IMG/VR virus record: IMGVR_UViG_3300046370_000051
Coordinates: 1 to 23,224 of that record
DNA length: 23,224 bases
Direction: 5' to 3' (one strand)
Origin: a virus
Shown here: positions 2,082 through 23,224 of the stretch, in pieces
Numbering within the stretch: the first letter of the stretch is position 1
How the letters are laid out: each line of letters starts with the position of its first letter
Position numbers and translations under genes: made by a program
Notes under the pieces: generated by a model
Seen by the model: the letters and a program-made list of their open reading frames with translations, nothing else
Database searches by the model: none
What the model was told of the DNA's origin: nothing

Positions 2082-2312
2082 TTAAAGTTCTTCCATTGGG
2101 GCAGTCCACTCTTCACCTGCTAAAACCTCAAGGATTTCAGCGTGGCTATAAGTGTCTTTACCTAATAGAAAAGGTGGCATAGCTCCTTCATACTTTACGA
2201 ATGTCTTATCACCCGCAACATTATACCGAAGGGTATTAGCTGAGGTTTCAAGAACGTTATTAAAGTCTACAGAAGGAACTTCCGAAGCGTCAATGATTAC
2301 GTAGTTTCTCAT
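2082..2312 (-). CDS. Small protein after LamG adhesin, copy 2
   Basis: A 76-residue protein of unknown function, clearly paralogous to the 78-residue protein encoded at 3146-3382: roughly 50 of 76 residues are identical by hand alignment, including TLRYNVAGD, TFVKYEGA, VLAGE and the C-terminal PMEEL. It directly follows the second LamG-like gene, just as its paralogue follows the first. The pairing suggests that each small protein works with the adhesin encoded before it, perhaps as an assembly factor or an adhesin subunit, but no catalytic or binding motif is visible. The SHAEILEVLAGEEW segment resembles the end (DHAEFLEGLTGD) of the small RRGT-type protein at 4773-5009. The leader lacks a ribosome site and shares CCTAGCTAACC with the leader of copy 1. 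Confidence 0.75.
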   Translation of the reverse strand: MRNYVIIDASEVPSVDFNNVLETSANTLRYNVAGDKTFVKYEGAMPPFLLGKDTYSHAEILEVLAGEEWTAPMEEL

Positions 2313-2326
2313 AGTATTAGTATAGG

Positions 2327-3142
2327 TTAGCTAGGAACGTCAGTTGAGAAGGATGGACTATTGGTTAGTGTTGCGTCATTACCTCCGCTACCTTGGTCTG
2401 TGATCGTAGTGCCACTTCCTGAATCATTATCACCCATACGATACCAAGCAACAGGCGAGTAAGAAGTTAGGTCGGCAGGTACTCCGCTGTTGTATATGGC
2501 GGTAACATCAGAGGCTGATAAAACGGAGGGTATAATAGCTAATTCGTCTAGCTTGCCTGAAAAATTGAGTTCACTGGAACCCGGTCTATTTCTTTTTCCT
2601 ATTACCCAATCAAGACTTGATGTGTAATCAGACATTGTACCTGCGGTGGATACCGTATTATCTAGCGTTCCGTTAATGTACAGTTTTGTTACAATATTTG
2701 ATGCGTCTTGCTCTATCGTCCCGACACAATGAAACCAATCCGTTCCATGAGCTGTCGTACCTATGTTAGTTATAACCGATCCTGTTCCTGTGTAATAAAC
2801 AATACGAACAAAGCCAACGCTAGTTTGATAATAATACCTAGTCGATCCTTGGTTACCTGCAAAAACCTGATTTCCTGAAGCATCCTTTGCCCAAAACGAA
2901 ACGGAATGATCCGAATTAAAAGTTGATTGGAAGGTTGAACCTGTAGCTATAAAATCGTCAGTACCGTCAAAGTCTACGCTGTAGGTGTTACTAAAAGCTG
3001 CTCCTCCACTATCCGAAACAATCTCTGTCCAAGCAGAACCGTCCCAAACGATAATCTTATTAGTGTCCGTCTCAAAGTATGCCTCACCAGCAGCTGGCGA
3101 AGCGGGACGGGTGGATGATGTGACTGTATTTAAAGTAGCCAT
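2327..3142 (-). CDS. LamG/concanavalin-like tail adhesin, copy 2
   Basis: A 271-residue likely receptor-binding protein. Residues 21-40 (AYFETDTNKIIVWDGSAWTE) form the DTNK-type beta-hairpin also found in two small neighbours. From about residue 49 to the end is a LamG-like jelly-roll domain: FSNTYSVDFDGTDDFIATGS, then HSVSFWAKDASGNQVFAGN, TKLYINGTLDNTV, FSGKLDELAI and DVTAIYNSGVP, the usual strand pattern for laminin G/pentraxin-type sugar-binding folds. The C-terminus (GTTITDQGSGGNDATL) is about 80% identical to copy 1, while the centre differs strongly, as expected for a variable binding face. GGAGGAA, in the end of the preceding gene, provides a ribosome site. It should be exported to the tail tip, not secreted; there is no signal peptide. 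Confidence 0.8.
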   Translation of the reverse strand: MATLNTVTSSTRPASPAAGEAYFETDTNKIIVWDGSAWTEIVSDSGGAAFSNTYSVDFDGTDDFIATGSTFQSTFNSDHSVSFWAKDASGNQVFAGNQGSTRYYYQTSVGFVRIVYYTGTGSVITNIGTTAHGTDWFHCVGTIEQDASNIVTKLYINGTLDNTVSTAGTMSDYTSSLDWVIGKRNRPGSSELNFSGKLDELAIIPSVLSASDVTAIYNSGVPADLTSYSPVAWYRMGDNDSGSGTTITDQGSGGNDATLTNSPSFSTDVPS

Positions 3143-3145
3143 GTC

Positions 3146-3382
3146 TTATAGTTCCTCCATAGGTTGTGTCCAAGCTTCCCCAGCCAACACGGTCAACATT
3201 GCCGAGTGACTAAGGGTATCTTTTCCGTATAGGCTGCGTGGTTTAGCTCCTTCGTATTTAACAAAGGTTTCATCACCTGCCACGTTATATCTTAGTGTAT
3301 CCACTGATGTTTGAAGTACTTCGTCAAAGTTAACGGTACTTACTTCATCAGCATTTAGAATTACATATTGTCTAGTGCTCAT
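3146..3382 (-). CDS. Small protein after LamG adhesin, copy 1
   Basis: A 78-residue protein of unknown function and the paralogue of the protein encoded at 2082-2312. The strongest shared blocks are TLRYNVAGD, TFVKYEGA, GKDT and the C-terminal PMEEL. Its stop codon lies three bases before the ATG of LamG copy 2, and its final codons (ATGGAGGAACTATAA) contain the ribosome site for that gene, so the two are likely translationally coupled. It begins 12 bases after the stop of LamG copy 1, without a Shine-Dalgarno sequence. A role as assembly partner of the LamG adhesins is inferred only from the repeated gene pairing. Confidence 0.75.
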   Translation of the reverse strand: MSTRQYVILNADEVSTVNFDEVLQTSVDTLRYNVAGDETFVKYEGAKPRSLYGKDTLSHSAMLTVLAGEAWTQPMEEL

Positions 3383-3394
3383 AGTTATTAAGGG

Positions 3395-4231
3395 TTAGCT
3401 AGGGACATCAGAGGAGAATGTTGGACCGTTAACAAGCGTACCGTCGTTTCCTCCGCTTCCTTGGTCAGTAATAGTTGTGCCTGCCCCAGAGTCGTCATCT
3501 CCCATCCTCCACCAGCCTGTGGGCGAATACGAACTTAGGTCGTCAGGCACTCCGCTATTGTAAATGGCAGTAACATCAGAAGAGGATAAAGCAGTACTGT
3601 CCCACCATCCAAATTCATCAATCTTTCCTTTGAATCCGAATGTACCTGATGTATTAATAGCACCAATAACTTCAGGATAAAAATCCGAAGCGGTACTACT
3701 CGCCCCTGCATCTTGATCAATTTGTGAACCATTTAAATACATGGTTACAGTTGTAGTGGCATTGTCCTTTGTCCAAACCAAATTATTCCATTGAGTGAGG
3801 ACAGATAGGTCTGTACTGCTAAAACTTAATATATTAAAGGGAGAACCACTTTGTCTTAGATAATAGCTTATAGAAGAACTTCCATCATAATACATCCCCA
3901 ATCGTTTCTGTGTTGATCTGCCTGTAAGGAAATAATTACCTGCCCCCGTAAACTCAGGTTTGAACCAAACAGACACCGACCAAGTGCTAACAAGCGTAGT
4001 GAGACCTGTGCTTACATAGTCATCAGTACCGTCAAAGTCTACGCTATACTGGTTACTAAAACTAGTACTAGCTTCATTAGCAAACGTTCTCCACGATCCA
4101 CTGTCGTATACAACAATAGCACCTGCATCGGTACTACCAGCAGCTTTCAAATATAACTCACCATTCTTAGCAAGTCCGTTAGTTACCAACTCCGATTGTT
4201 GGCTGTCGTTAATTACTGTAATATCGCTCAT
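3395..4231 (-). CDS. LamG/concanavalin-like tail adhesin, copy 1
   Basis: A 278-residue probable receptor-binding protein. I chose the ATG at 4231 because it lies four bases after the stop of the preceding gene; an upstream in-frame start (4288) would run through that gene. Residues 1-50 differ from copy 2 (MSDITVINDSQQSELV, later IVVYDSGSWRTF, a short hairpin). From about residue 57 the LamG-like domain begins: SFSNQYSVDFDGTDDYVSTG, WSVSVWFKPEFTGAGNYFLT, TMYLNGSQID, FKGKIDEFGWWD, DVTAIYNSGVP. The last 64 residues match copy 2 at 51 positions by hand count, but the central part does not, fitting duplication followed by divergence of the binding surface. It probably sits on the tail periphery and contacts surface glycans. 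The LamG assignment is by strand pattern. Confidence 0.8.
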   Translation of the reverse strand: MSDITVINDSQQSELVTNGLAKNGELYLKAAGSTDAGAIVVYDSGSWRTFANEASTSFSNQYSVDFDGTDDYVSTGLTTLVSTWSVSVWFKPEFTGAGNYFLTGRSTQKRLGMYYDGSSSISYYLRQSGSPFNILSFSSTDLSVLTQWNNLVWTKDNATTTVTMYLNGSQIDQDAGASSTASDFYPEVIGAINTSGTFGFKGKIDEFGWWDSTALSSSDVTAIYNSGVPDDLSSYSPTGWWRMGDDDSGAGTTITDQGSGGNDGTLVNGPTFSSDVPS

Positions 4232-4235
4232 GTGT

Positions 4236-4493
4236 TTAGCTGTTGTTATAGACCTGCCAGTTACTACCGTCAAATACGTAGAGATCATAAGTATCGCTTC
4301 CGTACATGATAGTGCCTGTGCTGTCGCTGGTTCTTGCTGTTATGTTTGCTGCCGTGTCTACATCGGGTGCAACGGTATCTTCAGGAAAGCCGAGAATAGA
4401 CTTTAAGAAGTCCGTCACAGCGTCCGATTTATCTACCTTGTCATCCAACTTCGACTTAACGGTCTGTCCTATTTGTTGAAGTATGTTAGCCAT
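4236..4493 (-). CDS. Short tail-associated protein with shared N-terminal docking-type motif
   Basis: An 85-residue protein. Residues 4-15 (ILQQIGQTVKSK) match the N-terminal motif of the fibre (IFYQIGQSTKSA) and of the next small protein (VWYQMGQSVRNL). After a charged spacer (LDDKVDKSDAVTDFLKSIL) it ends with a beta-hairpin module, TARTSDSTGTIMYGSDTYDL followed by YVFDGSNWQVY, which resembles the hairpin at the start of LamG copy 2. The architecture, docking motif plus hairpin, suggests an adaptor or a minimal fibre that links another adhesin to the virion. It is followed within four bases by LamG copy 1. The start has only an AT-rich leader containing AATCACTAA. The function is inferred from context. 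Confidence 0.7.
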   Translation of the reverse strand: MANILQQIGQTVKSKLDDKVDKSDAVTDFLKSILGFPEDTVAPDVDTAANITARTSDSTGTIMYGSDTYDLYVFDGSNWQVYNNS

Positions 4494-5234: not shown

Positions 5235-5471
5235 TTAGCACTTCCAACGACGCAACGCTAAAGCTTTACGGGTAGGTCTGCCTTTACTGTCTTTCATTGG
5301 TCCCTTGTTACCTGACATACGAGCACAGAAGGAACGCTTACGAGGACCACCACCGGGTTGAGGAGCTTTTAAATTAGAACCAGTAGCACGGTTGTATTTA
5401 CGTCTACCCTTCGCAGTGAGTCCACCTTTACGGCTTTTCTCACCTCTGCCTATAGATAACGATACACCCAC
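5235..5471 (-). CDS. Basic DUF6321-like protein
   Basis: A 78-residue, strongly basic protein (over 20 Lys/Arg, about two acidic residues). The blocks KGGLTAKGRRKYNRATGSNL, SFCARMSGNKGPMKD and PTRKALALRRWKC are the signature of a small conserved family in marine phages that I recall as DUF6321. Two cysteines (in SFCARM and at the C-terminus) are conserved in that family and might bind a metal or form a crosslink. Its role is unknown; the charge suggests contact with DNA, RNA or lipopolysaccharide. It starts at a GTG one base after the stop of the 42-residue gene, so the two are coupled. It ends just before the ATG of the next gene (5232). Confidence 0.75.
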   Translation of the reverse strand: MGVSLSIGRGEKSRKGGLTAKGRRKYNRATGSNLKAPQPGGGPRKRSFCARMSGNKGPMKDSKGRPTRKALALRRWKC

Positions 5472-5603: not shown

Positions 5604-5855
5604 CTATCTTTTCATTAGCAGCTCCATCATACGATCAAGCTTAGTGTTTATCTCTTTAATATTAGTTTCAAGTGCTCCCATACGGTTCTCAACAGCAGTA
5701 TCTCTTTCACTTTGTGCTGCCAACTCCACCTCTATCTTAGTCAGTCGTCTTTCGTCGTTCTCTAATCTATCTGACAGTTTCTTTATCATCCAACCGATTA
5801 CTGCGAGTATAACGCCAAGAGCTGTATCTAAGAAGTGGGAGAGCGATTCAGTCAT
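5604..5855 (-). CDS. Membrane-anchored coiled-coil protein, holin-like
   Basis: An 83-residue protein with one transmembrane segment (about residues 8-25, FLDTALGVILAVIGWMIK) and a long charged coiled coil to the end (LSDRLENDERRLTKIEVELA and onward). T7 places its holin gene 17.5 at the same site, after the fibre and before the terminases, so a holin or other lysis-timing role is the leading idea. The two lysines directly after the membrane segment and the acidic N-terminus predict an N-out, C-in topology, so the coiled coil would be cytoplasmic, which argues against an i-spanin. Other possible roles are membrane docking or a regulator of lysis. It begins four bases after the stop of the S74 fibre gene, with no clear ribosome site. 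Confidence 0.6.
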   Translation of the reverse strand: MTESLSHFLDTALGVILAVIGWMIKKLSDRLENDERRLTKIEVELAAQSERDTAVENRMGALETNIKEINTKLDRMMELLMKR

Positions 5856-20991: not shown

Positions 20992-22053
20992 TTACTTCTG
21001 AAGTTCGATAGCACACTCAGGACGGAGAACTCCGTGACCCATAGCGTACTTCGCAACGAAAAGTGTACCTTGACGTTCGATTTGGTACTCAGATTCAGTA
21101 GCCAAGTCGAGCAGTTTAACAGTTCCAACAGCAGCAGAATGAGAAACAACACCAAGCGTGTTAGTAAAGTTTCCGTTATATCCTACTCCGCTTCCACCGA
21201 ACACGTCGTTAGCAGCTTCTCCGTCACCAGTAGAAACAGCAGACAAGTCAGTCGATGGGATGTGGTTGGATTTGTAGATTGTGATACCTGCGATTTGAGG
21301 GATCGATCCAGCAGCGATGCTTCCTACACCTCCGACGTCTTTATTGACAGCAGAAGTAGAGATAGCAAGCTGTCCAGCACCACCAGTGATTAACTTGTAG
21401 TACTCTTGTGGACGAAGAACGCAGAAACGACCGTCGCTAGGAACGTCATTTTCGTCGAGCTTCTGAGCAGCAGTGAAAAGAGCAGCTGTTAATTCTGCAC
21501 CAGTTGGATCAGTGTTATCAGTGTCGTCTTCTGAGTCACTTACGTCACCCATTGCATTAGCAGAAACATCAAGGATACCACCAGTCTTACCACCAGTTAC
21601 GGCAGCAGCAGAACGAGCAGCAGCGATGAATACTTTAGCAAGAGCAGTATCGAAACGAACAGCAAGAGCTTTACCCAACTCGTTAGCGTAGACGCTGCGG
21701 ATGTCGTAGTGGTTCTTTACGTCGTCGATGTTGCTTAAGAAAGTAGAAGCCAAAAGCATCTTGTCGATAGTGATGACTTTCTCAGCTTTCTTGATGTCGC
21801 TAAGGTAGCTGTTTCCAGCGTCAGCGATGTTTTCACCGGGTGTATGGTAAGCAGCAGAAGCGATTCCTGTTACAGGGAACTGAGCTGATTTACCGTTTTC
21901 GATTGTGCGAACAGTATGTAGTGCTTTAAAGATGTTGCTTTCCTCGAAGGTTTGCAGAATCTCTCCGCTAAACTTTTTAAGAAACAAAGCATCTGTATCA
22001 CCAGCACTATTAACTTGTCCAACACGTGAGGGGGATGTATCTCCATTAGCCAT
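20992..22053 (-). CDS. Major capsid protein (T7 gene 10-like)
   Basis: A 353-residue HK97-fold coat protein; T7 gp10A has 345 residues. Blocks shared with T7 include ALFLKKFSGEILQTFEESNI (T7: ALFLKVFGGEVLTAF), ENGKSAQFPVTGIASAAYHT (GKSAQFPVLGRTQAAY), EKVITIDKMLLAS, NHYDIRSVYANELGKALA, HSAAVGTVKLLDLATE and the end AKYAMGHGVLRPE (AKYAMGHGGLRPE). This gene and the repeat-rich fibre look richer in GC and Ala than the giant internal protein, as expected for a highly expressed gene. AAAGGAAAA eight bases before the ATG is a good ribosome site, unusual among the gap-preceded genes here. No slippery sequence and extension like T7 10B is visible after the stop. Confidence 0.97.
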   Translation of the reverse strand: MANGDTSPSRVGQVNSAGDTDALFLKKFSGEILQTFEESNIFKALHTVRTIENGKSAQFPVTGIASAAYHTPGENIADAGNSYLSDIKKAEKVITIDKMLLASTFLSNIDDVKNHYDIRSVYANELGKALAVRFDTALAKVFIAAARSAAAVTGGKTGGILDVSANAMGDVSDSEDDTDNTDPTGAELTAALFTAAQKLDENDVPSDGRFCVLRPQEYYKLITGGAGQLAISTSAVNKDVGGVGSIAAGSIPQIAGITIYKSNHIPSTDLSAVSTGDGEAANDVFGGSGVGYNGNFTNTLGVVSHSAAVGTVKLLDLATESEYQIERQGTLFVAKYAMGHGVLRPECAIELQK

Positions 22054-22098: not shown

Positions 22099-22174
22099 GT
22101 TGGTTTGACTCTTACTTCTTTCGTTCACAGGATTGTCTACCGCAGTAGGTCGAGGGACTAATTGTCGCAATCGT
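22096..22174 (-). other. Open +1 frame following the membrane microprotein stop
   Basis: Directly after the TAG of the 37-residue microprotein, the +1 frame stays open to a TAA at 22096-22098 and reads RRLRQLVPRPTAVDNPVNER then SKSQTN. It would extend the membrane segment by a basic, proline-containing tail, the expected cytoplasmic side. Loss of one T from the TTTT run just before the TAG joins the frames smoothly (NIFIYRRLRQ). It may be a relic, a programmed shift or a sequencing error. Confidence 0.4.
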
Positions 22175-22288
22175 CTATAAAATAAATATATTACCGATTA
22201 CAATAACAGCAATAAATACACCAATTGTCAACACTAGTGCTTTCTCACGTTTATCTAAGCCACGGTAAATCCTAAGAAGTCTTTTCAT
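22175..22288 (-). CDS. Membrane microprotein
   Basis: A 37-residue protein translated by hand from the ATG at 22288. Residues 1-16 are basic (MKRLLRIYRGLDKREK) and residues 17-37 (ALVLTIGVFIAVIVIGNIFI) form one strong transmembrane helix; the frame then ends at TAG. Its start overlaps the end of the lipoprotein gene by 17 bases and uses GGAG seven bases upstream, inside that gene, a clear coupled ribosome site, so the gene is very likely real. It could be a small holin/pinholin-like or regulatory membrane peptide acting with the lipoprotein, but nothing more specific can be said. The adjoining +1 frame may belong to the same protein. Confidence 0.7.
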   Translation of the reverse strand: MKRLLRIYRGLDKREKALVLTIGVFIAVIVIGNIFIL

Positions 22289-22715
22289 TTGGAACTCCAT
22301 TCTTTGCTTTCTTGTGAACGTACCTCGTATATATGATCGGTATGACATTCCACAATACTACTCCAATTAAACAGACTTTTAGCAAGCCATAAATTTCAGT
22401 CAACATACTATCAAAAAAGCCGTTGTCCATTGACTCATCTAGTTGATTATTAACGAGTTGCTTAATATCTCCCTCGCTCAACGCTTTGACTTGCTGTGTT
22501 AAATGTGCGTTTTCTTCTGTGTATTTGGCTACTTCTCCCACACCCCATCCAAGGGCAGCACCACCAGCAGCAGGACCGGGACCACCCAGACTACCAACAG
22601 CTGCACCACCTGTAGCTCCTAATGCTGGATAGAAAGACGCCTTGGAACAACCCGAAAAACTTCCTGAAACCGATAACAGGAAGAAAACGAAAGTAGGTAG
22701 TCCAAGGCGTCTCAA
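22272..22715 (-). CDS. Lipoprotein with C-terminal membrane segment; unimolecular spanin candidate
   Basis: A 147-residue protein starting at TTG (22715); the frame is closed by TAA two codons earlier and has no ATG until far inside, so TTG is the only sensible start. Residues 1-22 are a signal peptide (RRLGLPTFVFFLLSVSGSFS) ending in a lipobox FSG|C with Cys23. Residues 33-62 are a glycine zipper-like stretch (GATGGAAVGSLGGPGPAAGG). Residues 64-107 are hydrophilic and helical, then 108-129 (IYGLLKVCLIGVVLWNVIPI) form a membrane segment followed by basic residues (RYVHKKAKN), predicting a cytoplasmic end. Lipid-anchored N-terminus plus C-terminal inner-membrane helix is the topology of u-spanins such as T1 gp11. 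The site, between scaffold and capsid genes, is unusual for lysis genes. An alternative role is a membrane protein involved in infection or exclusion. Confidence 0.65.
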   Translation of the reverse strand: MRRLGLPTFVFFLLSVSGSFSGCSKASFYPALGATGGAAVGSLGGPGPAAGGAALGWGVGEVAKYTEENAHLTQQVKALSEGDIKQLVNNQLDESMDNGFFDSMLTEIYGLLKVCLIGVVLWNVIPIIYTRYVHKKAKNGVPNEKTS

Positions 22716-22736: not shown

Positions 22737-23224
22737 TTAAATATTACTCACAGCGAGCCGTCTGTCAATCTCTTGATGATATGCTTTGTCACCACTACGA
22801 TAACGTGGGTCAGACTGTGCTCGTGCTAGTTCCTGCATACTCTTAAAAGGCATAGTGGATGTACCGCTCACTGCTCCCTGTACCAGCTTAGGTTGTGTTG
22901 CACCTGTAGCATTCTGATACCTAGCGTACAATCCTTGCACTGCTAACTTCGCTTGGCTGACCGTGCCTCCTGTAACAGCTTCGTCAAATGCGTCGATCTC
23001 TTCCTGCGGTAAATGTTCGTTTGCCCATTCAGCCATTGCATCGTAGCTATCACCTGCGACTCCTTTGATCTCTGCTTCTTCTCCTTGCAACAACGCCTGT
23101 TGACCAGCTGCGTAACTATCGACGAGATCACGTGGTAATCCTACTTCTTCAAGTTTCTTATAAGTTTCTTCAGACAGTTGACCGTCATTAGCAAAGAACT
23201 CCTGACTAGCTTCAACAACAGCTT
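22737..23224 (-). CDS. Capsid assembly scaffolding protein (T7 gene 9-like), C-terminal part
   Basis: The frame is open to the window edge, so the N-terminus is missing; about 162 residues are seen. It is acidic and helical, with FFANDGQLSEETYKKLEEVG, GLPRDLVDSYAAGQQALLQG, AEWANEHLPQEEIDAFDEAV and a C-terminal MPFKSMQELARAQSDPRYRS followed by DKAYHQEIDRRLAVSNI. These blocks are typical of T7-like scaffolds, whose C-terminal DPRY...Y...V..KL..S motif binds the coat protein. It guides prohead assembly and is then released. It precedes the capsid gene as in T7, but two extra genes intervene. The internal TTG at 23093 is not the start, since homologous sequence continues upstream. Confidence 0.92.
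   Translation of the reverse strand, partial: AVVEASQEFFANDGQLSEETYKKLEEVGLPRDLVDSYAAGQQALLQGEEAEIKGVAGDSYDAMAEWANEHLPQEEIDAFDEAVTGGTVSQAKLAVQGLYARYQNATGATQPKLVQGAVSGTSTMPFKSMQELARAQSDPRYRSGDKAYHQEIDRRLAVSNI

Follow-up and report, generated by a model that had tools for sequence, protein, structure and literature searches.

A candidate unimolecular spanin encoded between the scaffold and capsid genes of uncultured marine T7-like phages, and its natural replacement by a cassette resembling a two-component spanin

In the window, i.e. the whole 23,224-base virus record that was analysed, a lipoprotein gene at 22272..22715 on the minus strand (147 aa, TTG start) encodes what is probably the phage's spanin, of the unimolecular kind (u-spanin) and unrelated in sequence to the known families; the protein would be made late and bridge the membranes. 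The strongest evidence for this reading is the natural replacement of the gene in its slot: because relatives repeatedly swap it for a cassette that resembles a two-part spanin, outer-membrane disruption at lysis is its probable role. The gene gives one marine T7-like group a strong candidate for a spanin, away from the position where lysis genes usually lie, and the new elements are the family with its Gly-rich bridge, its location within the head module and the natural exchange of one-chain and two-part cassettes. The capsid protein of the window is 61% identical to that of Ayaqvirus S45C18, which places the window among the marine Autographiviridae.

The gene is flanked on the left by a T7 gp9-like scaffold gene (22737..23222, minus strand; PHROG head assembly, 9e-44; Pfam T7 capsid assembly, 2e-12) and on the right by the gene of a Gp10A-like major capsid protein (20992..22053, minus strand; Pfam Gp10A-like, 7e-68), confirming the position between scaffold and capsid genes that a first-pass annotation of this DNA had given. 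The same annotation had noted that no Rz/Rz1 gene lies between the terminases. The window ends within the large terminase, but in a complete relative the two terminase ORFs overlap, and no such gene lies between them. Its suggestion that the missing spanin had moved to the head module holds in a wider sense, as the slot hosts several unrelated lysis-like genes across this branch of marine autographiviruses.

The 147-codon ORF was found to be real but to lie on the minus strand, the plus strand at 22272-22715 being full of stops. The TTG at 22715 is its sole possible start (context TAA GAG TTG), and no strong Shine-Dalgarno sequence is present there. The predicted protein consists of a signal sequence (residues 1-22), the lipid-bearing Cys23, a Gly-rich stretch (33-60), a soluble part (61-108), a transmembrane (TM) helix at about 110-128 and a basic C-terminal tail, YTRYVHKKAKNG. 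The lipobox proposed at Cys23 is borne out by SFSG directly before the cysteine and by a frame-specific signal in 38 aligned members. Indeed, signal sequences vary across the family, and frame 0 is free of stops and has 0.08 charged residues per 15, while the other two frames show stops in 19 and 5 sequences and 1.6 and 2.1 charges; by this comparison the signal segment exceeds chance expectation. The C-terminal membrane helix followed by basic residues was likewise recovered, with a hydrophobic maximum at residues 110-128 (mean KD 2.2, equalled by only 13 out of 2000 shuffled mature sequences) that falls at the identical place in 39/39 family members. The proposed glycine zipper fared less well. 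The glycines G33, G37, G41 and G45, each invariant in A2, do form a GxxxG run of four, for which p is 0.026 relative to the composition of the entire mature part but only 0.16 relative to the Gly/Ala-rich segment itself; hence the stretch is distinguished by its richness and conservation and is not a statistically striking zipper. The AlphaFold2 model is of low confidence (pLDDT 51), with helices at 84-94 and 100-139 and no strands.

The lipoprotein belongs to what is, by its sequences, a conserved family of uncultured marine phages, with at least 137 loci from two IMG/VR scans and 39 distinct sequences aligned. No homologue was found in isolate phages (50,697 phage records searched) or among the bacterial genomes searched, and no match passed the cut-off in PHROGs, Pfam or NCBIfam. 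The mature part opens with an invariant CSKASFYP, continues with the Gly-rich stretch, in which G56, G58 and G60 are invariant in addition to the four glycines above, and then displays the motifs EEN..L, EGD...LV..QL and GFFD; the TM helix carries an invariant W, N and P and is followed by YTRYV..K. A median dN/dS of 0.126 over the mature part corresponds to purifying selection, and none of the 39 members has a cysteine between the lipid Cys and the TM helix.

Two smaller elements accompany the gene. A 37-aa single-TM microprotein (22175..22288, minus strand; ATG at 22288, GGAG 6 nt upstream) is conserved alongside the lipoprotein; its gene shares 17 nt with the 3' end of the lipoprotein gene and is present in 20/20 checked lipoprotein-type slots versus 3/19 replacement-type slots. 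Furthermore, an RNA-type hairpin (22636..22711, minus strand; arms 22701-22711 and 22636-22646, 11 pairs, loop of about 55 nt) overlaps the TTG start and codons S24-K25-A26-S27 of the lipoprotein gene, signal-peptide codons included. Its 11 pairs are kept in 16/16 sequences and one of them covaries (A-U/U-A/C-G/U-G); it may act as a terminator, a processing site or a control of translation, and the conservation of CSKAS may partly reflect the RNA level. The replacement-type phages L214 and L230 have a comparable hairpin, with a T run, after the scaffold gene.

Relatives were sampled by their capsid protein (MCP) to avoid bias, and 67 fully covered scaffold-capsid slots were compared. The lipoprotein gene occupies 48 of them and a replacement cassette with a three-TM (3TM) protein the other 19, while slots with both cassettes or with neither were absent from this sample (0/67 each). 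The replacement consists of two genes, i108 and h155, in 18/19 cases, and of a divergent h155-type gene alone in one (L364). This mutual exclusion is an alternative occupancy of one slot, not proof of identical function. Over the capsid DNA tree, 7 changes of slot type are counted, of which at least 4 are forced by well-supported (starred) branches. L230/G010 has a capsid protein 100% and a scaffold 98% identical to those of the window, yet its slot contains an i108-like protein and h155, together with an intact microprotein and the decayed 3' remnant of the lipoprotein gene. This 3' scar is secure in G010 (87% over 345 nt), and L224, L225, L227, L229 and L230 all retain, after h155, sequence matching that end of the gene. 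The IMG/VR contigs underlying the comparison are metagenomic, and the different source samples of these five argue against assembly chimeras. The 5' part of the G010 slot was also considered as a scar, a proposal weakened by the presence of the hairpin in L214, which is otherwise traceless.

In the replacement cassette, i108 is a TM then coiled-coil protein and h155 a 155-aa protein with several hydrophobic segments. The +1 frame of h155 is open up to the same stop (codon 137) in 72/72 distinct genes and carries an LLLSGC lipobox in 70 of them. Moreover, the synonymous variability of h155, about 0.2-0.4 elsewhere, drops to 0.1 across the signal region and to 0.02 across the lipobox, and L364 shows the same overlapping arrangement in its divergent h155, with a clear ATG start for the lipoprotein. 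On this pattern the +1-frame lipoprotein is a real overlapping gene, Rz1-like in size and position, and together with i108 it would resemble a two-component spanin. Like Rz/Rz1 of lambda and T7, the cassette pairs a TM/coiled-coil protein with an overlapping lipoprotein, two chains where the window has one; unlike in Rz/Rz1, the lipoprotein is embedded in the 3TM gene and not in the i-spanin-like gene. A candidate o-spanin nested in this way, within a 3TM gene and in its +1 frame, is seen at L214:2636-3100 and in L219-L298, possibly an undescribed spanin arrangement.

Other occupants of the slot are envelope genes as well. In the sister clade, that of S45C18, it holds a different conserved lipoprotein (62 loci) that overlaps another frame, and a phrog_9685 TM protein. 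L191-type phages have in this slot a 3TM protein (phrog_38283) and a signal-bearing enzyme, whose lysozyme identity rests on a 33% match (E 9e-6) to a Cellulophaga phage protein annotated as lysozyme; its AlphaFold2 model is poor (pLDDT 62) and the PDB fold search was meaningless (best E 1.2). An hhalign probability of 73% over 43 columns is suggestive of a shared family for h155 and the L191 3TM gene, both called holin-like here by their hydrophobic pattern only. The alternation of unrelated envelope genes in one slot fits a single needed function, lysis.

Several points count against the spanin reading: the low-confidence AlphaFold2 model lacks the strands of the beta-rich T1 type, no homology to a known spanin family was found, the TTG start lacks a strong Shine-Dalgarno sequence, and two unrelated accessory genes could occupy one insertion slot without any common function. 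The protein might then be a moron, a superinfection exclusion or envelope-remodelling lipoprotein in a variable slot, with the swapped cassette as another moron. Slot content does vary across relatives, superinfection exclusion is known for small phage lipoproteins such as Cor and Llp, and T1 has a Cor gene. However, morons are usually dispensable and no slot of the 67 lacks both cassettes; a 3TM protein and a lysozyme-like enzyme fill the slot in some relatives; and the exclusion lipoproteins known to us have no C-terminal inner-membrane helix of the kind predicted here. We consider this explanation unlikely.

The u-spanin candidacy raised by the first-pass annotation is supported by the topology, the conservation and the repeated replacement by a lipoprotein plus TM/coiled-coil cassette, and the family (38-39 members) combines the lipobox signal, the C-terminal TM helix and an 87-residue bridge free of Cys. 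U-spanins are known as 13 unrelated families, and all 58 known ones lack periplasmic Cys (PMC6139136). Their prototype, T1 gp11 (NC_005833), restores lysis to an Rz/Rz1 mutant (PMC6139136). It has the same order of parts, a lipobox LSGC followed by Ser (FSGC followed by Ser in the window), a bridge of 85 residues, no periplasmic Cys, a C-terminal TM helix and a basic tail. In contrast, no homology is detectable (hhalign probability 9%), Gly and Ala make up 16% of the T1 gp11 bridge and 30% of the one in the window, the T1 gp11 type is beta-rich whereas no strands are predicted here (in a low-confidence model), and the T1 gene sits after holin and endolysin, not in the head module. The spanins of roseophage SIO1 and cobaviruses, also marine podoviruses, are single proteins with an N-terminal lipoprotein signal and a C-terminal TM domain (PMC6775973). 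Unlike the window gene, theirs lie near endolysin genes; they were compared by description, and the window lipoprotein had no match among the phage records searched. SlyB/Pcp-type outer-membrane lipoproteins share the lipid Cys followed by a Gly-zipper segment, but the Pfam Gly-zipper_Omp match is not significant (E 0.11, 12.9 bits against a cut-off of 25), and we know of no member of that type with a C-terminal inner-membrane helix.

As a spanin, the lipoprotein would be synthesised late alongside the head genes and then exported. It would be cleaved and lipidated at Cys23, with Ser at +2 favouring the outer membrane, while the C-terminal helix would anchor it in the inner membrane with the basic tail on the cytoplasmic side. 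The 87 residues between lipid and helix would span the periplasm through the wall; an extended N-terminal part (61 residues at 0.33 nm) and a short helix (25 at 0.15) could together reach about 24 nm, roughly the width of a periplasm. Once the wall is cut, the bridge would collapse and both membranes would be fused or disrupted. Packing or oligomerisation at or within the outer membrane is the probable task of the Gly-rich stretch adjoining the lipid, and the 37-aa membrane peptide is probably a holin-like partner. A bolder version, a zipper-hairpin u-spanin in the outer membrane that forms with its 37-aa partner an exchangeable cassette for endolysin-free phage release, appears improbable.

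Lysis genes were also sought elsewhere. No endolysin or wall hydrolase was recognised by Pfam/PHROGs in the complete relative G002 (L085+L086, 39,727 unique bases), and an L191-type HMM found no endolysin in G001-G004, G010 and G012; these negatives weigh against the spanin reading, as no normal lysis cassette was recognised in this lineage. One could then imagine a holin- or lysis-peptide-like killer, in which the Gly-rich lipoprotein and the closely associated microprotein permeabilise membranes with no recognisable endolysin. An unrecognised endolysin is weak evidence, though; replacement-type relatives likewise show none, and the architecture suits a bridge rather than a pore, which leaves this explanation quite unlikely. 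Very unlikely, finally, is a virion-associated membrane protein for entry or head assembly: the gene order between scaffold and capsid speaks for it, as late genes of T7-like phages are mostly structural, but the in-frame conserved lipobox signal directs the protein to the envelope, and several swaps for a non-homologous replacement occurred against a near-constant capsid and scaffold.

None of the counter-evidence that the first-pass annotation had named was found, and the near-complete relatives showed no spanin pair elsewhere; a lipoprotein scan picked out no candidate but the slot lipoprotein, both in the window and in G003. Small Cys-rich early lipoproteins (G001:2885-3037, G002:29601-29735, G004:14122-14256, G010:38116-38232) were rejected as o-spanins; they are absent from G003, hence their presence is not tied to cassette type. 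An 83-aa TM and coiled-coil protein near the small terminase (5604-5855, minus strand), weakly holin- or Rz-like, was rejected as i-spanin because it occurs with both cassette types and is therefore not what the slot swap replaces.

Many marine T7-like phages, among them P-SSP7, P60 and Syn5, are listed as spanin-less (PMC6139136), and annotation of the T7-like LUZ100 likewise yielded no spanin (PMC10134795). The slot shows where missing lysis genes of other uncultured phages can be sought. Moreover, near-identical genomes with a one- or two-part lipoprotein cassette make spanin interchangeability directly testable.

Three further features of the window were observed. A short element, CCTACTGCGGTAGACAATCC, lies upstream of the capsid gene at about 22110-22170 (minus strand) and is kept in both cassette types, with a similar CCCACTGCGGTGGACAATC as its counterpart in S45C18. 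A DUF6321 basic protein is encoded near the terminase at 5235-5471 (minus strand), whereas its relatives occupy the slot between scaffold and capsid genes in L191-type phages and HTVC304P. The tail-fibre region at 2082-4288 (minus strand) shows an apparent duplication, with two pairs, each made up of a 76/78-aa gene and a 271/297-aa laminin-G-like gene.
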